Below are positions 23,923-39,087 of a stretch of DNA of 64,000 bases, piece after piece. The translations under genes and the position numbers were made by a program. This DNA is from an uncultured Myxococcales bacterium (GTDB lineage: Bacteria; Myxococcota_A; UBA9042; DTJE01). The notes beneath the pieces are model-generated. The model worked only from the letters and a program-made list of their open reading frames with translations, did not search any database and had not been told where the DNA came from. Location: assembly GCA_903847405.1 (NCBI GenBank), contig CAINDP010000212.1:1-64000 (forward strand), read 5' to 3'. Every line of letters starts with the position of its first letter. Within the stretch, counting starts at the first letter, position 1.

Positions 23923-24714
23923 ATGGCCCCTGATCGCAAGTTCCAGACGCGCATGGCTGCGGGGATCGCGCTTTCCCTCCTGGTGGGAATCGCGGCATGC
24001 GGCCTGGACGAGCACTACACCGGCATGGGCGCGGGCGCATTGCCCGGCGACAAGCTCTACCCGCAGCCGGACCCGGGCCCGAACCCGTGCCAGGTGACGA
24101 CCGACGTCCCCACCAGCACCGACCTCCCCGTGGTCACGGTGGACAGCCTGGCCGGCAAGACCTACCGGTTCGACAGCCTCGCGCTGTCCAAGCCGCTGCC
24201 CGAAGCCCTGGCGGAAATGGTCAACCCCTTCATCGTGGACCAGTTGACCCAGGAACTGATCAACGTCCTGCTGGTCATCGACACGGACGATCGCACCGCG
24301 GAAACGATGGGCGTCCGTCTGGGCACCGGCCCCAAGCCGGCGACCGCCGGATCCTACGCGTTCGGCGACGCCCCGCAGACCGTGACCTTCACCTTCGAAA
24401 ACCCCGGATTCATTTCCGCGGCGCCGACCAGCCTGGCGATTTCCGTGTCGTTCGGCGACTCGTCCCTGGTGCTGCCCGTGAAGGCCCTGACGCTGAAGGG
24501 CACGTTCAAGACCGATGGCACCGCCATCCAGGGCGGCACCCTGGTCGGCGCGATCACCGAAGCGGACGCCACCACCGCCATGACCCCCCTGGGCTCCCTG
24601 GCGGACGTCCTGACCCTCCAGAACCCGCCGATCACCCCCGACACCACCGTTGACGGTCAGCCGGCCTGGTCCTTCGAGGCGACGTTCACGGCAATCGAAG
24701 CGACGGTGAATTGA
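23923..24714 (+). CDS. Lipoprotein of unknown function
   Basis: 263 residues. The N-terminus is basic then hydrophobic and ends in a GIAAC lipobox (Cys about 25), so the protein is probably lipid-anchored. The rest is beta-rich and Thr/Pro-rich with no recognised motif. Two adjacent ATGs (23920, 23923) are available; the second has GGAGG five bases away. Its stop lies 68 bases before the next gene, a CrtC-like secreted protein, on the same strand. Confidence 0.75.
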   Translation: MAPDRKFQTRMAAGIALSLLVGIAACGLDEHYTGMGAGALPGDKLYPQPDPGPNPCQVTTDVPTSTDLPVVTVDSLAGKTYRFDSLALSKPLPEALAEMVNPFIVDQLTQELINVLLVIDTDDRTAETMGVRLGTGPKPATAGSYAFGDAPQTVTFTFENPGFISAAPTSLAISVSFGDSSLVLPVKALTLKGTFKTDGTAIQGGTLVGAITEADATTAMTPLGSLADVLTLQNPPITPDTTVDGQPAWSFEATFTAIEATVN

Positions 24715-24782
24715 CCGCGGCCTTGCACGTCCTACCCACGCGCCGGGCTGCACGGAATCAGAAACTCCCAAGGAGGCTCACG

Positions 24783-25880
24783 ATGTCGGTGAAGGCCATC
24801 AGTTCCCTTTGGATCGCGGTGCTCCTGTTCACCGCCCTGCCCGCCCAGGCCAAGGTCAAGGCCGACATGTCGGGCGCGGCGGTCCAGCAGACCAGCAAGC
24901 TGGACTTTCTGCGGCACCCCGACGACGCGAAGTACTACACGGAATCGTGGACCACGATCCTGCAGTCGGACCAGGGCCACATCCTGTACATCAACTTCAT
25001 GTACACCAACATCGGCGTGACCTCCGGCCGCGCGGCCGTCAGCGTCAACCTCACGATGCCCGGCGGCTCCCAGGCCAAGAACTACGGCTGGGAGTACGAC
25101 CAGGACGAGTACCAGGAGGACTTCGAGTCCGGTACGATCAAGATCGGGCCCCACTCGCTGACCCTGCAGGGCAAGACCGCCCGGTACCGCATCGAGGCGC
25201 CGGACATGCGCATCAACATCACCCTCAACGGGTGGACCAACGGCGCGAAGTTCCACGACGGCAAGATCTGCATCGACGACGCCTGCGACGAGTGGGTCGT
25301 GTCGTTCTTCCACGTACCGCGGGGCGACTTCGAGGGCGAGATGTCCGTCGGCGGCCAGCGGGCGCGCCTGAAGGGCCAGGGCTACCTGGACCACATGGTG
25401 AACAACCAGCTCAGCAGCAAGTGGTCGACCCACTGGTGGACGACGCGCTACTTCGCCCCGGACCACACGGTCGCCTTCTGGGCGTTCAAGACGCGGCCGG
25501 ACCGCGGCGGCGAAAAGGTGACGCGCCTGCTGATCGCGGACCGCGAAAGGATCCTGACGCTGACGGACAACGGGGGCCTCAAGACCGATACGCCCGTCAA
25601 GGATCCGGCCCCCAAGGGCCACAGCTACGACACGGTCTACAACCTGGACGTCAAGCGTTCCGGCCTGACCCTGGTCGGTACCTTCGTCGGCAAGGGCCTC
25701 CACGACCGCGACGGCGTCCTGGAACGCCTGCCCTGGGCCCAGCGCACCATCGCCCAGGCCGTCGCCGGCAACCCGATCATCTACCGCCAGCGGGGCGAAG
25801 CGACCCTGACGCTGACCCTCGAGGGCCAGCCCCCGATCCCCCTGACCGGCGCCGCCCTGATGGAAGCGATCGTCAACTGA
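24783..25880 (+). CDS. Exported CrtC/AttH-like lipocalin-fold protein
   Basis: 365 residues with a signal peptide (about 1-22, ending ALPAQAKVK). The body is beta-rich, and GQGYLDHMVNNQLSSKWSTH with a following FAPDHTVAFWAFKT is in the style of the Svf1/CrtC/AttH superfamily, where GY-x-DH precedes the central strand pair. It would be a periplasmic hydrophobic-ligand binder or hydratase-like protein. The start has AAGGAGG six bases upstream. It is a second, exported member of the superfamily also seen at 13604-14620. Confidence 0.68.
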   Translation: MSVKAISSLWIAVLLFTALPAQAKVKADMSGAAVQQTSKLDFLRHPDDAKYYTESWTTILQSDQGHILYINFMYTNIGVTSGRAAVSVNLTMPGGSQAKNYGWEYDQDEYQEDFESGTIKIGPHSLTLQGKTARYRIEAPDMRINITLNGWTNGAKFHDGKICIDDACDEWVVSFFHVPRGDFEGEMSVGGQRARLKGQGYLDHMVNNQLSSKWSTHWWTTRYFAPDHTVAFWAFKTRPDRGGEKVTRLLIADRERILTLTDNGGLKTDTPVKDPAPKGHSYDTVYNLDVKRSGLTLVGTFVGKGLHDRDGVLERLPWAQRTIAQAVAGNPIIYRQRGEATLTLTLEGQPPIPLTGAALMEAIVN

Positions 25881-26731: not shown

Positions 26732-27558
26732 GCGGCCAGAAAGGAATCCTGACCGACGTCACGAAGTGCATCGGCTGCGAGCGCTGCGTCCAGTCGTGCC
26801 GCATGGCCAACAACCTGGGCACCGTGCTGCCGTTCCGCTGGCTGCTGGATGACGGGCTGTCCGCCGTCCGCTGGTGCTCGGTGCTGCGCAAGGACAACAA
26901 GTTCGTCCGCAAGCAGTGCATGCACTGCCTCCAGCCGGCGTGCGTGTCCGCCTGTCCCGTCGGCGCCCTGCAGAAGACCGCCGAAGGGCCGGTCATCTAC
27001 GACTCGGGCAAGTGCCTGGGCTGCCGCTACTGCATGATGTCCTGCCCCTTCGGCATCCCGCGCTACGACTGGGAGTCGGCGGTGCCGTTCGTCCGCAAGT
27101 GCCAGATGTGCTACCAGGGCCGCGTGTCCAAGGGCGTCCAGCCCGGCTGCACCGCCGGCTGCCCGGTGGGCGCGACGATCTTCGGCGACCGCGACGAACT
27201 GCTGGCCGAGGCGCACAAGCGCATCGCGGAGAACCCGGATCGCTACCTTCCCACCGTGTTCGGCGAGAGCGAGGTCGGCGGCACGTCGGTGCTGTACCTC
27301 GCGCCGATGCACCTGGACATCCTGACCCTGGGCAACAAGCTGGACGAGCGCCCGATGCCCGGCCGCACCGCCACGGCGATGTCGGCCGTGCCGATCGTGT
27401 TCGTGGGCATGGGAGCCCTGATGACCAGCGTCTACTGGATCATCGAACGCCGCATGAAGAACGAGCGCGACCGCGCCGCCAAGAACGGCACGTTGCCCAC
27501 GAGCACCCACGGCCACGGGGCCGCGGGTCACCACCACGACGACGGGAAGGAGGGCTGA
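26728..27558 (+). CDS. HybA/NrfC-type 4Fe-4S electron-transfer subunit
   Basis: 276 residues. Four Cys clusters typical of this family are present: CIGCERCVQSC, CMHCLQPACVSACP, CLGCRYCMMSCP and CQMCYQG...CTAGCP, enough for four 4Fe-4S clusters. A single membrane helix near residues 208-230 and a His-rich tail follow, as in HybA. It would relay electrons between the membrane partner and a redox enzyme. There is no Tat or Sec signal at the N-terminus, so the clusters may lie in the cytoplasm or be carried across with a partner. It overlaps the upstream gene as ATGA and ends two bases before the next. Confidence 0.92.
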   Translation: MSGQKGILTDVTKCIGCERCVQSCRMANNLGTVLPFRWLLDDGLSAVRWCSVLRKDNKFVRKQCMHCLQPACVSACPVGALQKTAEGPVIYDSGKCLGCRYCMMSCPFGIPRYDWESAVPFVRKCQMCYQGRVSKGVQPGCTAGCPVGATIFGDRDELLAEAHKRIAENPDRYLPTVFGESEVGGTSVLYLAPMHLDILTLGNKLDERPMPGRTATAMSAVPIVFVGMGALMTSVYWIIERRMKNERDRAAKNGTLPTSTHGHGAAGHHHDDGKEG

Positions 27559-27560
27559 CC

Positions 27561-29399
27561 ATGAAGATGAAGCGCCTCAAGACCGTCAAAAGCATCCTGT
27601 GGGCCTTGGTCGGGGCCGCCTTCGCCATCGCCGTGTTCCGCTTCTGGCGGGGCCTGGGTCCCACCACGGCGTTGACCGATCTGACCCCCTGGGGCTTCTG
27701 GATCGGGTTCGACGTCATGGGCGGCGTCGCGCTGGCCGCCGGCGGGTTCGTCGTCGCGGCGACCGTGTACGTGTTCCACCTGGAACGGTACCGCCCGATC
27801 CTGCGCCCGGCCGTGTTGACCGCCTTCCTGGGCTACGCCGCCGTCGTCGTCGGCCTGATGTTCGACCTGGGCCTGCCCTGGTCCATCTGGCACATGATCG
27901 TGTTCTGGAACCCCCACTCGCCGCTGTTCGAGGTCGGCTGGTGCGTGATGCTGTACCTGACCGTCCTGCTGCTGGAGTTCCTGCCCGTCATCCTGGAGAT
28001 GTCGAAGCACCCGGTGGTCGCGGCCGTCCACCACACCCTGCACAAGTTCACCGTGCCGCTGGTCATCCTGGGCATCATGCTGTCCTCGCTGCACCAGTCG
28101 TCCCTGGGGTCGCTGTTCCTGATCATGCCCCACCGGCTGGACCCGCTGTGGTACACGCCGATCCTCCCGATCCTGTTCTTCATTTCCGCCGTCGCCCTGG
28201 GCCTGATGATGGTCACGACCGAGTCGCTGTTTTCGGCGTGGCTGTACGAAGAGGAATACGAACTGGACCTGCTGCAGGGCCTGGGCCGCGTCGCGGCGGG
28301 CGTCCTGTGGTTCTACCTCGCCGTGCGGCTGGGCGACCTGGCGTACCGCGGCACCCTCCCGCACGTCCTGGACGGGGGCTACGGCCCGACCCTGTTCCTG
28401 ATCGAGATCCTGGTCTCGGTGATCATCCCGGCCACCCTGCTGACGATCCCGGCGACGCGCAAGCGCATGAAGACCCTGGCCATCGCGGCCGGCATGACCG
28501 TGTTCGGCATGGTCTTCTACCGCATCGACGTGGGCGGCCTGGCCATGATCGAAACGACGGGGACGCGCTACATCCCGTCGTGGACCGAACTGACCGTGTC
28601 GTTCGGCATCGTGGCGGGCGCGGCGCTGGTGTTCTTCTGGATCGCCGAGCACTTCCACCTGATGCACGGCGGGCCGATGGTGAAGGGCCGCGAGACCCTG
28701 CCCGACATCAAGACCTTCCGGCCGCGCCTGATCCGCGGCGCCGTGATGTTCGTCGGGGGCGCCGCCCTGGCGACGGCCCTGCTGCCCGGGACGGCCCTGG
28801 ACGGGTACCCGGTGGTGGCCCAGACCGTCCATCGCACGGGCTACGGCGACGTGATGATCCTGGACGGCAACCGCAACGACAAGGGCGTCCGGTTCGATCA
28901 CAAGGCCCACGCGGACATCGTCGAGGGCACCGACAAGTGTGCCTACTGCCACCACATGGTGAAGCCGGGCGCCCAGGCGACGGGCTGCGCGGAATGCCAC
29001 ACGGACGAGCACCTGCCCACGTCCATCTTCAACCACCGGCTGCACCAGGACCTCCTGGCCCAGGGCCCGGGCTGCCTGACGTGCCACGAGGACACGACCA
29101 AGCCCAAGGACCTGGAGCACTCGAAGCCCTGCCTGGACTGCCACGACAGCATGATCCCGGCCGGCGCCGCGTTCAAGCCCCTGGCCGCGCCGAGCATCGG
29201 GCTGGCCCCGGGCTACATGGACGCGATGCACGGCCTGTGCCTGCGCTGCCACACCGAGCAGGACGGCGGCCACTCGACCGACGCGCCGACCCTGGCCCGC
29301 TGCAGCACCTGCCACTCCGAGGCGGTCAAGGCCTTCGACCCCATGCACCCGGACAAGCGCCTGCCCGACGTGAAGAAGGACGACGCCAAGGCCGATTAG
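27561..29399 (+). CDS. NrfD/HybB-type membrane protein fused to a six-haem cytochrome
   Basis: 612 residues. Residues about 1-400 form a ten-helix NrfD/HybB-like membrane domain, beginning LTPWGFWIGFDVMGGVALAAGG, the family's quinone-site region. Residues about 440-612 are hydrophilic with six CxxCH haem motifs (CAYCH, CAECH, CLTCH, CLDCH, CLRCH, CSTCH) and extra His residues, as in class III multihaem cytochromes c. The cytochrome part must lie in the periplasm for haem attachment. The fusion would pass electrons between the quinone pool and the periplasm without a separate cytochrome. AAGGAGG lies seven bases before ATG. It is the last gene of the operon, and no hydrogenase or other catalytic subunit is present. 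Confidence 0.9.
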   Translation: MKMKRLKTVKSILWALVGAAFAIAVFRFWRGLGPTTALTDLTPWGFWIGFDVMGGVALAAGGFVVAATVYVFHLERYRPILRPAVLTAFLGYAAVVVGLMFDLGLPWSIWHMIVFWNPHSPLFEVGWCVMLYLTVLLLEFLPVILEMSKHPVVAAVHHTLHKFTVPLVILGIMLSSLHQSSLGSLFLIMPHRLDPLWYTPILPILFFISAVALGLMMVTTESLFSAWLYEEEYELDLLQGLGRVAAGVLWFYLAVRLGDLAYRGTLPHVLDGGYGPTLFLIEILVSVIIPATLLTIPATRKRMKTLAIAAGMTVFGMVFYRIDVGGLAMIETTGTRYIPSWTELTVSFGIVAGAALVFFWIAEHFHLMHGGPMVKGRETLPDIKTFRPRLIRGAVMFVGGAALATALLPGTALDGYPVVAQTVHRTGYGDVMILDGNRNDKGVRFDHKAHADIVEGTDKCAYCHHMVKPGAQATGCAECHTDEHLPTSIFNHRLHQDLLAQGPGCLTCHEDTTKPKDLEHSKPCLDCHDSMIPAGAAFKPLAAPSIGLAPGYMDAMHGLCLRCHTEQDGGHSTDAPTLARCSTCHSEAVKAFDPMHPDKRLPDVKKDDAKAD

Positions 29400-29645: not shown

Positions 29646-30995
29646 TCACCTGCAGCCGAAACGCTCGATCCAGCGATAGACCTGGCGCCGATCCCGGCCC
29701 AGGCGGCGGGCGATCTCCGACACGTTTCCCGCGCAGTCCCGGAAGACCTCCTGGAACCGCTCGGCGGACGGCAGTTCGGGCTCGGTGACGGCCGGGACCC
29801 CCGCCGTATCGGCCGGTTCGTCCACGGGCGTCGGCCGCCCCCCGGAGGAGCGCGGGGTGGCCGCGATGCGCGCCTGGATGCGGTGCCGGATCGCCTGGGG
29901 CAGCGCGGCCAGGGGCAGCGGGACGTCCCCGGGGGCATCCTGCTGCGCGACGTCCACCGCGGACAGCAGTTCCCGGACGTTGAACGGCCAGGCGTGCACC
30001 GCCAGCGCCTCGGCGGCGTCCGCCGACAATCCCGGGTGCCCCGACGGAAGGCGGCCCAGCGCGATGGCCAGCGCGTCCTCGGGCCGCTCCCGCAGCGGCG
30101 GCAAGGCGATCGTCCGCTGGGACAGCCGCGCGAACAGGTCCGCCCGGAACCGCCCCGAGGCCAGGCGGGCTTCCAGGTCCTGGTTGGTCGCGGCGATGAA
30201 CCGCACGTCCACCGTCACGTCGTCCACCGTCCCGATCGTCGCGATTTCGCCGGTTTCCAGGAACCGCAGCAGCTTCGCCTGGGACTCGTCGGGCATTTCG
30301 GCGACTTCGTCCAGGAACAGCGTCCCGCCCGCCGCGGCCCGGGCATAGCCGCCGAAGTCCTTCGTGGCGCCGGTGAACGCGCCCTTGCAGTGGCCGAAGA
30401 AGGCGCTTTCGAACAGCCCGCCCGACACGGCGGCGCAGTTCACCGCCACGAACCGGCCTGAACGCCCCGAGCAGGCGTGCAGGTAGCGGGCGAACACCTC
30501 CTTCCCGGTTCCCGTTTCGCCCCGCAGCAGCACCGTCGCATCCGTAACCGCGATGCGGCGGCAGGTTTCCTCGACCCGGCGCAGGGCCGGCGAATTCCCC
30601 AGGAACGGCAGCCCCGCGGCCAGCGGCGAGGGCACGTCCAGACCGATTTCGCGCATCACGAACAGCGTCCCGCCCACGCGCAGCACCGACCCGTCCCGCA
30701 GGACGGCCGACGCCACGCGAACGCCGTCCACGAAGATCCCGTTCTTGCTGTTCCGGTCGGTCACGAACCAGGAGGCCCCCTTGCAGTGAAGCTCCGCGTG
30801 GACCCGCGACACCTGGGGATCGGCCAGGACCAGGTCCGCCCCGTCGTCGTTCGACCGGCCGATGACGGTCTTCGCCTGCAAGATCAAGGCGGAAAGGGCC
30901 CCGTCGGGCAGCGGGGGATGGATCTGGAAGAGGTGGTGGACCTTCGACGACGCCTGGTCCGTGACGTCCATCGTCTGTGTCGAGCGGCGCTTCAT
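29646..30995 (-). CDS. FHA-domain sigma-54 transcription activator
   Basis: 449 residues in three parts. An N-terminal FHA domain (about 35-115) has the phospho-Thr-binding residues GRS (46-48), SRVHAEL and [10 protein letters not shown]. The AAA+ domain (about 130-365) has Walker A GETGTGKE (159-166), the sigma-54-contacting loop GAFTGA (205-210) and Walker B LFLDE (226-230). The C-terminal Fis-type helix-turn-helix (about 410-449) ends [16 protein letters not shown]. There is no receiver domain, so activity should be set by Thr phosphorylation of itself or a partner. It is divergent from the repeat lipoprotein at 31227, whose promoter is a sigma-54 type with a palindromic upstream site. ATG at 30995 has GGAGG three bases away, slightly close. 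Confidence 0.93.
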
Positions 30996-31066
30996 GACCC
31001 TCCCGGACTTTGGCCGAGGATAGCACGCGCGGGGCGGGACGATCACCTCCCGACGGCGACCAGCCT

Positions 31067-31103
31067 GTGTCCCGGGACACCCCCGGGTGTCCCACCCTGT
31101 CCC
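31067..31103. promoter_or_regulatory. Palindromic upstream activator site
   Basis: GTGTCCCGGGACAC at 31067-31080 is a perfect 14-base palindrome. Two more TGTCCC half-sites follow at 31088-31093 and 31098-31103. The palindrome lies roughly 125 bases before the expected start of transcription of the lipoprotein gene, a normal distance for a sigma-54 activator site, and about 70 bases from the start codon of the activator gene. Binding by that activator is inferred. Confidence 0.6.
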
Positions 31104-31173: not shown

Positions 31174-31189
31174 TGGCACGGCCCCTGCA
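31174..31189 (+). promoter_or_regulatory. Sigma-54 promoter of the repeat lipoprotein gene
   Basis: TGGCACGGCCCCTGCA has the invariant GG and GC with exactly ten bases between, and differs from the consensus TGGCACG-N4-TTGCA at only one position of the second box. It sits 38 bases before the start ATG, and a GGAGG lies at 31213-31217. Confidence 0.75.
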
Positions 31190-31226: not shown

Positions 31227-33344
31227 ATGCGCAACACATCCCGACATGCCCTTGGAACCCTGCTGATGCTGGTGGCCGGCCTGGCCGCCTGCGACCCCGG
31301 CCCGTACAGCATCGATCTGGCCGGCCTGGACCTGTTCAGCCCCGACGTCGCGATCGACGCGTCGCCGGACGTCCCCGGGGACGCCGTGGACGACCTGCGC
31401 CCCGACGAGGGCATCGCGCCCCTCGACGTCCCGTCCGAAGCCCAAACCGACATCCCGCCGCCGTCCCCGTGCATGAAGGACCTGAACCCCCAGTGCGAGC
31501 CCAAGGAATGCCCCCTGGACGACGGCACCACGGGCCTCTGTCGCTGGGATGCCTACGCCACCTGCGGCTGCACGCCCCGGGTCCCGCCGGTCAAGCCGTG
31601 CGACAAGGACCTGAACCCCCAGTGCAAGCCCGAAGCCTGTGACGACGGCAACGCGACGACCACCGACGATCGCTGCCGCCAGGTCGAAGACGCCAACGGC
31701 GTGCTGTCCTGCGAGTGCGCCGGCGCGCCCGTCCCGGCCGATCCCTGCCTGAAGGTGTTCAACCCCGAGTGCAAGCCCACCGAATGCAAACTGGTCACCG
31801 GGGAACCCGGGCGCTGCCAGAAGGACGACGTGCTGGGCTGCGGCTGCAAGCCGGAACTCACGCCGCTGGACCCGTGCTCGGAGGCATTGAACCCCAAGTG
31901 CGAACCCAAGGAATGCCCCCTGCAGAACGGCGCCCTGGGCACGTGCCGCTTCGACGCCGCGGGCAGTTGCGCCTGCGCCCCCTTCCTGCTGCCGACCGAT
32001 CCCTGCGTCAAGGACGCGAACCCCGAGTGCAAGCCCGAGTTGTGCGACGACGGCAACCCCGCCACCATCAAGGACGAATGCCGGTGGGTGTCCGACGCGG
32101 CCGGCTGGAAGTACTGCAAGTGCCTGGGCGAATACGTCCCCTACGACCCGTGCGTGCCGCCGTTCAATCCCGAGTGCAAGCCCACCGACTGCAAGCTGGC
32201 GACCGGAGCGGTCGGCCGGTGCCAGAAGGACGAGAAGTTGGGCTGCGGCTGCCTGCCTGTCATCACCCCCGTGGACCCCTGCAGCAAGGAATTGAACCCG
32301 ACCTGCGAACCCAGGGACTGCGCCTTCGCAGACGGCTCCGTGGGCACCTGCCGCTTCGACGCCGTCGGGCGGTGCGGCTGCGCGCCCTTCGTTCCGCCGC
32401 AGGATCCCTGCAGCAAGGAGCCCAACCCCCAGTGCAAGGCCGAGGTGTGCGACGACGGCAACCCCGTGACCCAGAACGACCGCTGCCGCTGGGTCATGGA
32501 CGCGATCGGCCTGTCGTACTGCAAGTGCGGTGGCGAACTGCCGCCCCGGGACCCGTGCAGCCCGATCCTGAACCCCGAGTGCAAGCCCACGGAATGCAAG
32601 CTGGCCACGGGCGAAGCGGGCCGATGCCAGAAGGACGACAAGGTGGGCTGCGGCTGCCTGCCGGTGGTCGTGCCCGTGGACCCCTGCGGCAAGGACCTGA
32701 ACCCCTCGTGCGAACCCGGCGACTGCCCGATGGCCGACGGCACGGTCGGAACCTGCCGCATCGACGCCACGAAGGTCTGTGCCTGCGCACCGTTCGTCCC
32801 GCCGGTGGACCTGTGCGGCAAGGACGCGAATCCCCAGTGCAAGGCCGAAGCGTGCGACGACGGCAACCCGATCACCCTGCTGGACCAGTGCCGCTGGATT
32901 TCGGATGCCTTCGGATACAAGTGGTGCAAGTGCCTGGGCGAGGTCGTGGCCGAGGACCCGTGCGCCAAGGACCTGAACCCCCAGTGCAAGGACGTTCAGT
33001 GCACGCTGTGGACCGGCGAAACGGGACGCTGCGCCAAGGACACCGTCCAGGGCTGCGGCTGTGCACCCGTGGCCGTCGTGGACCCCTGCAGCCGGGACCT
33101 GAACCCGCAGTGCCTGGTCACCCGGTGCGACGACGGCGACCCCAAGACCCTCGAGGACGCCTGCATCTGGCTGACGCTGCCCCTGGGCATTGATGCGTGC
33201 AAGTGCGTGGGCAAGCCGGCGGCCTTCGACCCCTGCGCCGACTGGTTCAATCCCGCCTGCAAGCCCGAAGACTGCAAGACGGCCGACGGGAAGGCGGGGC
33301 GCTGCGGCTGGAACTTCGACGGTTGCGGCTGCACGGGCGTCTGA
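31227..33344 (+). CDS. Lipoprotein made of fourteen six-Cys repeats
   Basis: 705 residues, function unknown. A lipoprotein signal with LAAC lipobox (Cys about 22) leads to an Asp/Pro-rich stalk (about 23-78). The rest is fourteen repeats of about 40-48 residues built on DPC-x4-NPxC-x3-C...C...C-x-C, six Cys each. The repeats come in three types. A carries a GTCR-type centre. B carries CDDGN and CRW, with a longer spacer. C carries GRCQKD. Repeats 1-12 are four A-B-C sets, and 13-14 are a B and a C-like repeat. Six Cys per unit suggests disulfide-bonded modules on the cell surface. It is controlled by a sigma-54 promoter and probably by the FHA activator divergent from it. A structural or adhesive role is plausible but unproved. 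Confidence 0.85.
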   Translation: MRNTSRHALGTLLMLVAGLAACDPGPYSIDLAGLDLFSPDVAIDASPDVPGDAVDDLRPDEGIAPLDVPSEAQTDIPPPSPCMKDLNPQCEPKECPLDDGTTGLCRWDAYATCGCTPRVPPVKPCDKDLNPQCKPEACDDGNATTTDDRCRQVEDANGVLSCECAGAPVPADPCLKVFNPECKPTECKLVTGEPGRCQKDDVLGCGCKPELTPLDPCSEALNPKCEPKECPLQNGALGTCRFDAAGSCACAPFLLPTDPCVKDANPECKPELCDDGNPATIKDECRWVSDAAGWKYCKCLGEYVPYDPCVPPFNPECKPTDCKLATGAVGRCQKDEKLGCGCLPVITPVDPCSKELNPTCEPRDCAFADGSVGTCRFDAVGRCGCAPFVPPQDPCSKEPNPQCKAEVCDDGNPVTQNDRCRWVMDAIGLSYCKCGGELPPRDPCSPILNPECKPTECKLATGEAGRCQKDDKVGCGCLPVVVPVDPCGKDLNPSCEPGDCPMADGTVGTCRIDATKVCACAPFVPPVDLCGKDANPQCKAEACDDGNPITLLDQCRWISDAFGYKWCKCLGEVVAEDPCAKDLNPQCKDVQCTLWTGETGRCAKDTVQGCGCAPVAVVDPCSRDLNPQCLVTRCDDGDPKTLEDACIWLTLPLGIDACKCVGKPAAFDPCADWFNPACKPEDCKTADGKAGRCGWNFDGCGCTGV

Positions 33345-36907: not shown

Positions 36908-38146
36908 TCACGGCGCGTCGAACGGCACCTCCAGGATACGGACCGTCGCGAAACACGCCGACGAATCGTTGGACTGCTGGAACAGGACGGCGTGGTCCCC
37001 GGCGGCGATGCGCGCGAACACGTCGGGCGACGCCGCGACCTGCCACAGGACGGTCCCGGCCGCGTCATAGCGCACGGTGCGCGGGACCGATTCGCGATCC
37101 GCTTCCCCGCGAATGCCCACCAGGGCGCCGCCATCGGGCGCCGGCACCACGAACGTCGCCGATGCGAAGAAGCCGGGGAAACCCGCCGAGATGGAATGGC
37201 ACGCCTGGGGCAGGTCCTCCTTCGTCCAGGAAACGGTTCCATCGGACGCGAACCGGGTCACCTTCCACTCCAGGAACTCGACGGCACCGCCGCCGATCTG
37301 CCCCACGGCCCACACGTCGCCGGCCACGCCACGGGCCAGATCGGCGACGTACGCGCTGCCGCCCTCGGTGTGACGCCACGTTTCGGCGCCGTTCGCAGGG
37401 TCGATCGCCCGGACGTCGAACGCCCGCGCGCCCCTCGGCGCATAGACGGCGTTGCCGGACGCGTCCTCCACCAGACCGGTGCCCGTGGACGGCGGGTCCA
37501 GGGGGACATCGCCGAGGGTCGCGCCATCGGCAGGCGCGTACCGGCGCAGAGTGCCGGGGGTCGGCGGCGTCGAGGCTTCCGCGGCCGTATACGCCACCCA
37601 CAGTTCGTTCTTCGAGGAACGAAGCAGCGACCAACCCGCGATTCCCGGCTCCTCCAGGCTCCACGAAACGGCTGCACCGGAAGCGGCTCCCAGGTCCACG
37701 CGGGCCAGCCAGGCACCGCCAGGCGTCCCGCCATGGCACAGGATCGCCACGGAACCGTCCTGCAGAACCACCGGGTTCGCCACGAGGGAGGTGGGCGCCG
37801 GCCCCCCGACCCAGGAGCGGCCGGGTTGGCCCTGCCGATCGATTTCGATCAAGGCCGCGCGCCTTTCGTCGCCCTGCCCTGCAACACCCGCAAGGACCCA
37901 TCCCCCGGCGGGCAGCGCGGCGGCACCGGACAGTTCCAGACCGCAGAGGGAGTCCCCGGGGAGGTCCAGCGTGAACGTTGTGGAAGCGCCGGGCAGCACG
38001 TCGGGCAGGCCCGGGCAGGCCGGCGCGTCGGCGTTGACGGCGGCGTCGGCGGCGGCAAGGTCCATGGCGTCGTCGGACGTTCCTGCGCAGGCGAACCACA
38101 GCAGCGACGGCAGCAAAGGCAGCAGCAGAGCGACGGCCCGGTTCAT
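36908..38146 (-). CDS. Exported beta-propeller-like protein
   Basis: 412 residues. The signal sequence ends at ACAGTSDD and could be a lipobox (Cys20), although the -2 residue is Phe. The mature part is a series of beta-rich units with G-x-x-W and G-x-V-x-W patterns (ANGAETWRHTEG; DGTVSWTKED; AAGTVLWQVA) typical of PQQ/propeller blades. No catalytic motif. The upstream region contains a possible minus-strand sigma-54 promoter (38176-38189). Function is unknown; a binding role on the cell surface is likely. Confidence 0.75.
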   Translation of the reverse strand: MNRAVALLLPLLPSLLWFACAGTSDDAMDLAAADAAVNADAPACPGLPDVLPGASTTFTLDLPGDSLCGLELSGAAALPAGGWVLAGVAGQGDERRAALIEIDRQGQPGRSWVGGPAPTSLVANPVVLQDGSVAILCHGGTPGGAWLARVDLGAASGAAVSWSLEEPGIAGWSLLRSSKNELWVAYTAAEASTPPTPGTLRRYAPADGATLGDVPLDPPSTGTGLVEDASGNAVYAPRGARAFDVRAIDPANGAETWRHTEGGSAYVADLARGVAGDVWAVGQIGGGAVEFLEWKVTRFASDGTVSWTKEDLPQACHSISAGFPGFFASATFVVPAPDGGALVGIRGEADRESVPRTVRYDAAGTVLWQVAASPDVFARIAAGDHAVLFQQSNDSSACFATVRILEVPFDAP

Positions 38147-38174
38147 GGTTTCCCCCGACACGAAAATCGCAGAC

Positions 38175-38189
38175 TGCAAACGATTGCCC
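38175..38189 (-). promoter_or_regulatory. Possible sigma-54 promoter, minus strand
   Basis: On the minus strand GG, ten bases and GC are present with a TTTGCA second box, but the first box reads GGGCAA instead of TGGCAC. It lies just before the exported propeller-like gene, at a distance that leaves a leader of about 20 bases. Confidence 0.4.
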
Positions 38190-38385
38190 CCCCCCCGACG
38201 TTCTGTCCACCCCGGCGCTTGCCACGGAGGGCGTCGCTGGGGGGGGACAGGAAGGATGCAACGACCCGTTCGAACACACGGTTGGCCAAATCGGTGCAAC
38301 GGTACTCCAATGCGGGCCGGACGGAAACGGAAGGGGACGTTCACAGCGCGGCCTGCAGCCTGCGTGCGCCCGATCCGCCGGGGGC

Positions 38386-38400
38386 TGGCACGCCCCTTGC
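38386..38400 (+). promoter_or_regulatory. Sigma-54 promoter of a predicted outer-membrane gene
   Basis: TGGCACGCCCCTTGC is a full match to TGGCACG-N4-TTGC. The start ATG is 43 bases downstream. A TGTCC half-site (38204-38208) and an opposite GGACA (38245-38249) lie upstream, between this promoter and the minus-strand one. Confidence 0.75.
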
Positions 38401-38442
38401 GAACAGACTCCACATCGGAACCCGGCCACGGAGGCGCCACTG

Positions 38443-39087
38443 ATGACGAGACATGGCATCCACGCACTGGTGGTCCTTGCGATCACCACCATGGCGGTTG
38501 CGGCCGGGGCCGCCGAACCGGATCCGGAAGGCGCTTTGCCCGAACCGGCGTCCGTGCCCGGCATGGTCGTCGCCGTTCCCCCGGCACCGCTCCAACGCAT
38601 GCGCGACCGCATCGGGTGGGTGCGGGCGGGAGCCCTGCTGGGAGGCCAGATCGAACACAACAGGATCGCCCAGGCCGGGTTCAAATTGCAGTTCTTCGAA
38701 GTGGATTGGCAATCGGCCTACGCGGTTCCCCTGATGACGGCCTGGACCTTCGGGCTGGGGGACCCGGGCCCATATAACCGGCAGATCGATTTCATGGTGG
38801 GCGGCGAGGCCGGATTCCTGCACCGCTGGGCCGACGATCGGTTGATGCTGGGCGTCGCCTTCGGGTTGGCGGGCGGGGGTCCCTGGACCATGGCAGGCCT
38901 GGCCTTGCGACCCACGATCCGGTACCGGCACTACTGGGGTCGGCTCGGTGTCGAAGTGTCGCTGGAGGTGCCGTTGATCATGGGGAAGGTCGTCCACTTC
39001 ACCGAACGCGAATTCACGCCCGGCGAGCCGGCGGGCTGGCACGTGTCCGGGTGGCTTCCGGTGCTGGGATTTTCCATCGGGATGTGA
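38443..39087 (+). CDS. Exported protein, possibly a small outer-membrane barrel
   Basis: 214 residues. A signal peptide (about 1-23, ending AAGAAEP) leads into alternating hydrophobic strands (FKLQFFEVDW; FMVGGEAGFLHRW; LGVAFGLAGG; GRLGVEVSLEVPLI) and a final PVLGFSIGM, consistent with an eight-strand outer-membrane barrel. No known family is recognised. A GGAGG lies eight bases before ATG. Its promoter is a strong sigma-54 type, so it may share control with the lipoprotein at 31227. Confidence 0.72.
   Translation: MTRHGIHALVVLAITTMAVAAGAAEPDPEGALPEPASVPGMVVAVPPAPLQRMRDRIGWVRAGALLGGQIEHNRIAQAGFKLQFFEVDWQSAYAVPLMTAWTFGLGDPGPYNRQIDFMVGGEAGFLHRWADDRLMLGVAFGLAGGGPWTMAGLALRPTIRYRHYWGRLGVEVSLEVPLIMGKVVHFTEREFTPGEPAGWHVSGWLPVLGFSIGM

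Follow-up and report, generated by a model that had tools for sequence, protein, structure and literature searches.

How does a bacterial lipoprotein come to carry a long series of small disulfide-type modules in a strict three-type order, and what might such an array do for the cell? These questions are raised by a gene in a 64,000-nucleotide stretch of DNA, hereafter the window, from an uncultured Myxococcales bacterium. Three genomes recur in the analysis: the window's own genome (G000), that of a sister species (G001), and a third genome from the same genus (G002).

A lipoprotein on an acidic tether

The gene and the parts of its product that precede the modules are as follows.

31227..33344, + strand: gene for a Cys-module lipoprotein of 705 amino acids (open reading frame, with an orthologue in G001)
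31227..31292, + strand: signal peptide and lipobox LAA/C (Cys22), with Asp at +2 and Ser at +7 (from sequence)
31293..31469, + strand: acidic, Asp/Pro-rich, Cys-free linker from the anchor to the modules (from sequence)

The lipoprotein signal, MRNTSRHALGTLLMLVAGLAAC, has both the signal peptide and the lipobox cysteine that define a bacterial lipoprotein. Lipobox-type signals were found by pattern search in most homologues, and comparable acidic linkers are present among them. The mature window protein has a net charge of about -45 over its whole chain, and it ends in a module, with no distal head domain after the array. In M. xanthus, inner-membrane lipoproteins have Lys at +2, and the sorting rules also use Ala at +7 (PMC3222651). 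Because the window lipoprotein has neither residue at these positions, it would be assigned to the outer membrane if the M. xanthus rules carry over. The protein is probably lipid-anchored and exposed at the surface.

Other genes in the window include an open reading frame (26874-29399, +) that encodes an NrfD membrane domain followed by C-terminal class III/c7-type cytochrome c domains and is 87% conserved in G001. Also present are a protein (24711-25880, +) whose Svf1_C lipocalin-like domain belongs to a family that takes its name from a eukaryotic protein, and a probable lipoprotein with a weak, sub-threshold match to the PQQ_2 (BamB-like) propeller (36908-38467, -).

Three module types repeat as a block

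Fourteen six-Cys modules with the pattern C-x7-C-x4-C-x9/11-C-x6-11-C-x-C occupy positions 31470-33341. Judged by spacing and sequence, the types ABC occur four times in succession and are followed by BC. This agrees with the earlier sequence-only reading, which had placed the array at 31460-33344. That reading had also estimated the three-module unit at about 130 residues; the unit is real but slightly longer, at 405 bp or 135 residues (43+49+43).

31470..31874, + strand: Unit 1, with A1 31470-31598, B1 31599-31745 and C1 31746-31874 (modules, trees)
31875..32279, + strand: Unit 2, with A2 31875-32003, B2 32004-32150 and C2 32151-32279 (modules, trees)
32280..32684, + strand: Unit 3, with A3 32280-32408, B3 32409-32555 and C3 32556-32684 (modules, trees, AlphaFold2 model)
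32685..33086, + strand: Unit 4 (402 bp), with A4 32685-32813, B4 32814-32960 and C4 32961-33086 (modules, trees)
33087..33341, + strand: diverged end, with B5 33087-33233 and C5 33234-33341 (trees, homologue comparison)

Mean identity between modules of the window protein is 58% at lag 3, compared with 39% and 40% at lags 1 and 2, respectively. None of 2,000 permutations of the module order reaches the observed lag-3 similarity, measured as a BLOSUM score without cysteines (z = 4.5); four A, five B and five C modules can be arranged in 252,252 orders. If blocks had been duplicated, every third module rather than the adjacent one should be closest, and by non-Cys identity the nearest module lies at a multiple-of-3 lag for 12 of the 14 modules and is adjacent for none. 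The array therefore has the similarity peak at a lag above one module that characterizes a domain super-repeat. C4 is intermediate in sequence (57-61% to C1/C3 and 50% to A1). The acidic DDGN motif varies little or not at all among B modules and is widespread in the module family.

The block is older than the split between sister species

Trees of the modules from G000 and G001 place all B modules in one clade (support 100/97) and all A modules in another (88/82), and C1-C4 group together with weaker support (76/82). When the units are concatenated, Units 2 and 3 are closest, followed by Unit 4, with Unit 1 apart and B5-C5 far outside. Type clades and blocks duplicated as a unit, the further mark of a super-repeat, are thus both present, and the proposal that a three-module unit was duplicated as a block is borne out. 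The alignments are too short to establish that the A, B and C sub-trees agree in full.

The G001 orthologue (L034:3047-5332, -) is 74% identical, lies in conserved synteny and has the same module order, preceded by an extra 42-residue module, Z0, before A1. From the comparison of the two sequences, Z0 appears to be a single module gained or lost since the species split. All 84 module cysteines are kept between the orthologues, and dN/dS is about 0.22. Since same-position modules of the two species pair up in the tree for nearly every position, the block duplication is older than their divergence. Codon bias makes dS a poor clock, and therefore the values of 0.48-0.82 between units and 0.55 between orthologues, although similar, do not date the units.

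The two last modules have a separate history. B5 and C5 are far more diverged than the others, and the placement of C5 with C1-C4 is not secure, so the pair is best seen, to judge from the trees, as a diverged end of long standing and not as a fifth block cut short. A short-type module also closes the homologous arrays in G002, G004, G009 and G010. We infer that the array grew by unequal recombination of the 405-bp block and then settled.

Other arrays mostly lack the three-type order

With a module-pair profile, the family was found in 13 of 52 genomes of the organism's class, and the same 13 were the only positive genomes among 379 sampled across the phylum. The family is therefore restricted to this class among the genomes searched, and collections of plasmids and phages gave no match. 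Its arrays hold 3 to 25 modules, usually behind a lipoprotein signal. Clear period 3 occurs only in G000 and G001. Similarity peaks at lag 1 in arrays of G002, G009, G010 and G020 and at lag 2 in one G013 array, and the G004 array has a mild lag-3 excess only, beside lag 1. The G008 array, which is ended by a contig edge, has first modules of types A, B and C. A wide module tree across genera, with long branches and only 45 columns, was used for type-level placements alone.

In G002, the divergent regulator and the promoter are kept, yet the array lacks period 3 and is made up of 14 DDGN modules closed by an end module. Array content at this locus thus turns over faster than its regulatory frame, and the three-type order is dispensable there. 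The number of modules is nearly constant, at 14, 15 and 15 in G000, G001 and G002, respectively.

A conserved sigma-54 promoter device

The regulatory frame comprises three elements upstream of the lipoprotein gene.

31174..31188, + strand: sigma-54 (-24/-12) promoter TGGCACGGCCCCTGC, matching 10/11 consensus positions
31068..31079, no strand: perfect palindrome TGTCCCGGGACA, a putative enhancer site (GTGTCCCGGGACAC at 31067-31080)
29646..31046, - strand: FHA - sigma-54 AAA+ - HTH activator, divergent from the lipoprotein gene (Pfam FHA, Sigma54_activat, HTH)

The true start of the activator may lie near 30995. With a -24/-12 element and an activator site upstream, the palindrome centre being about 114 bp from the -12 element, the gene has the sequence features of a sigma-54-dependent gene. 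Published work connects sigma-54 with regulation of the cell exterior, including its lipoproteins (PMC3162934).

The same palindrome and promoter precede module lipoprotein genes in four more genomes (G001, G002, G009 and G018) at spacings of 114-135 bp, the G009 gene encoding four modules. Activators adjoin these genes in G001, G002 and G018 and are unlinked in G009. Common to them and to the window activator is an HTH core, R-R/K-Q-V-Y-R-W, that is absent from ten background sigma-54 activators. The whole G002 genome holds a single copy of the palindrome, at the module lipoprotein promoter, and all four copies in G018 precede sigma-54 promoters scoring 10-11 of 11. Other copies in G000, G001 and G009 lack a strong sigma-54 site (9/11 or better). 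The five other matches in G000, none with a sigma-54 promoter and several inside recognisable genes, were taken as chance. G000 also encodes a paralogue, a short lipoprotein with four clean modules and one degenerate (L049:8704-9627, -; G000:C34:41493-42335), and neither a palindrome nor a sigma-54 promoter was found there.

Links to protease inhibitors

The four palindrome targets in G018 are all secreted lipoproteins, namely a module array, a pacifastin/antistasin chain, and two other acidic Cys-containing lipoproteins. Two of the four are not inhibitor-like. The pacifastin/antistasin chain (L107:253-2661, +; G018:C50) is a 718-residue lipoprotein with 12 Pacifastin_I (4.5e-69) and 6 Antistasin (2.8e-32) domains. 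The remaining two lipoproteins behind a palindrome and sigma-54 promoter are at L108:478-1920 (-) and L106:620-1681 (+), and the former has DDAPIKIKP tandem repeats and a sub-threshold match to an APP copper-binding domain. Of the 52 genomes of the class, 7 have Pacifastin_I above its cut-off; the 14 control genomes have no match above it.

The co-regulated inhibitor array comes from a single genome, G018, a draft with ~5% contamination in which the promoter device is shared. In G004 and G010, a Kazal_1 domain above cut-off follows the module array of the homologue. Shared control in one genome and fusion in two others thus link the module family to serine-protease-inhibitor-type domains, but co-regulation and fusion do not establish the module itself as an inhibitor. 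No Kazal domain occurs in the window protein, and in its genome neither Kazal nor pacifastin reaches the cut-offs used.

Relation to known systems

Searches of Pfam, NCBIfam and PDB sequences with the protein and its module pairs gave no match that names the family. The whole protein matched no Pfam or NCBIfam family at E up to 10, and NCBIfam gave nothing for 28 module pairs except a chance match (0.097) to a model other than TIGR04201. Fold searches with the ABC unit and the B module returned nothing below E 0.4. Weak fibronectin type I fold matches were set aside, and a Toxin_3 match (Pfam) of one homologue probably reflects Cys spacing.

The order of the modules is a new case of an already known kind, the domain super-repeat, exemplified by the seven-module unit of nebulin (Bjorklund et al. 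2006, PMC1553488). As in nebulin, every n-th module is similar, neighbours differ, and several domains were duplicated at once. Unlike nebulin-type cases, the window array is bacterial, has six-Cys modules and has a period of three, and among its relatives expansion was mostly by single modules.

Among bacterial repeats, the Cys-rich repeats of TraA (TIGR04201) likewise form a tandem array on a myxobacterial envelope protein and have been proposed to serve as a stalk (PMC3325183). However, the window protein has a lipoprotein anchor, shows no PA14 recognition domain or MYXO-CTERM, and did not match TIGR04201 in the NCBIfam search at E up to 10. The modules can also be compared with DUF4215 / TIGR02232, the CDDGN-type myxobacterial disulfide repeats. 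These share the CDDGN motif followed by Asp and Cys but differ in Cys spacing, and neither the window protein nor its module pairs matched them in Pfam or NCBIfam. Multi-domain Kazal, pacifastin and antistasin inhibitors are alike in stringing small disulfide-rich domains together on secreted lipoproteins; in contrast, the window protein and module pairs match none of their Pfam profiles, and no inhibitory loop was identified. In the sources searched, neither the module family nor its promoter device has been described.

What the array might do

The modules, their arrangement in ABC blocks, the age of this arrangement relative to the sister split, the conserved palindrome, promoter and activator, and the restriction of the family to this class among the genomes searched are computed results, and on them we tentatively build a reading that we hold at somewhat less than even odds. 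The protein would be a regulated surface lipoprotein with about 14 independently folding six-Cys mini-domains, acting as a multivalent binder, most likely through inhibitor-like heads. On this reading, the FHA-domain activator would answer an FHA (phospho-threonine) signal and fire the lipoprotein promoter. The product would be exported and, given Asp at +2, anchored in the outer membrane, where the acidic tether would display the string of mini-domains on the membrane or cell surface. Three disulfides would close each module. The heads may resemble small protease inhibitors, by likeness to the Kazal, pacifastin and antistasin arrays of relatives, and types A, B and C may differ in the loops that they offer instead of forming the three faces of a rod.

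A passive role is somewhat less likely. The modules might give only reach and stiffness, as proposed for TraA, with the ABC order as a relic of growth. The near-constant module number despite the wholly different types in G002 is consistent with such a spacer, as is the recurrence of long Cys-rich arrays on acidic tethers in the family, and in TraA, several of the stalk repeats can each be dispensed with (PMC6372800). Yet the window protein has no distal head for a stalk to carry, its types stay distinct at each position across the sister-species divergence, and inhibitor domains are fused to or co-regulated with the family in relatives. A plain stalk nonetheless remains close in probability to the binding or inhibitory role. 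A bolder form of the latter seems rather unlikely: that the six-Cys module represents a novel kind of bacterial protease-inhibitor (or decoy) head, displayed as a 14-headed surface chain with three repeating specificities under a dedicated FHA sigma-54 activator, and that this activator controls a pacifastin/antistasin array as well in a relative.

More doubtful still is a metal-binding array in which the CDDGN-P-x-T-x-x-D loop of the B modules would bind Ca2+, making the protein a Ca-dependent adhesin with A and C as spacers. The near-invariance of the acidic DDGN motif in B modules, its wide occurrence in the family and the negative charge of the whole mature protein would suit this role, but no known Ca-binding family was matched in the Pfam and NCBIfam searches.

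The sequence-only reading had suggested a rod with three faces. In such a rod, the three module types would be packed with one constant, repeating geometry, and the exact order would be needed. The strict order in two species speaks for it. However, AlphaFold2, run on window sequences and related loci only, gave a mean pLDDT of 84.7 with a pTM of only 0.45 for one ABC unit (Unit 3), and a pLDDT of 89.6 for a B module alone, with a beta-hairpin inside modules. Confident modules with unsure relative placement fit beads on a string and give three fixed faces no support. Disulfide pairing was sought from modules that have lost a Cys pair, which are few. Moreover, the extra N-terminal module in G001 shifts the register from the anchor, the array ends in BC, and the regulator-linked G002 locus has no period 3. 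We consequently consider the rod improbable. Finally, the G000 draft assembly comprises 273 contigs, but an artefact of assembly or repeats can be dismissed, since the orthologue in an independent draft genome has the same order at 74-80% identity with conserved flanks, and the units differ from one another by 33-42% in protein sequence.

The array defines an undescribed disulfide-module family in Myxococcota. It also provides a bacterial domain super-repeat whose relative age is fixed by a sister species, together with a genome of the same genus that lacks such an order. The conserved promoter device ties this family to invertebrate-type protease-inhibitor arrays in bacteria, and the function of long Cys-rich lipoprotein arrays in these organisms thereby becomes testable.
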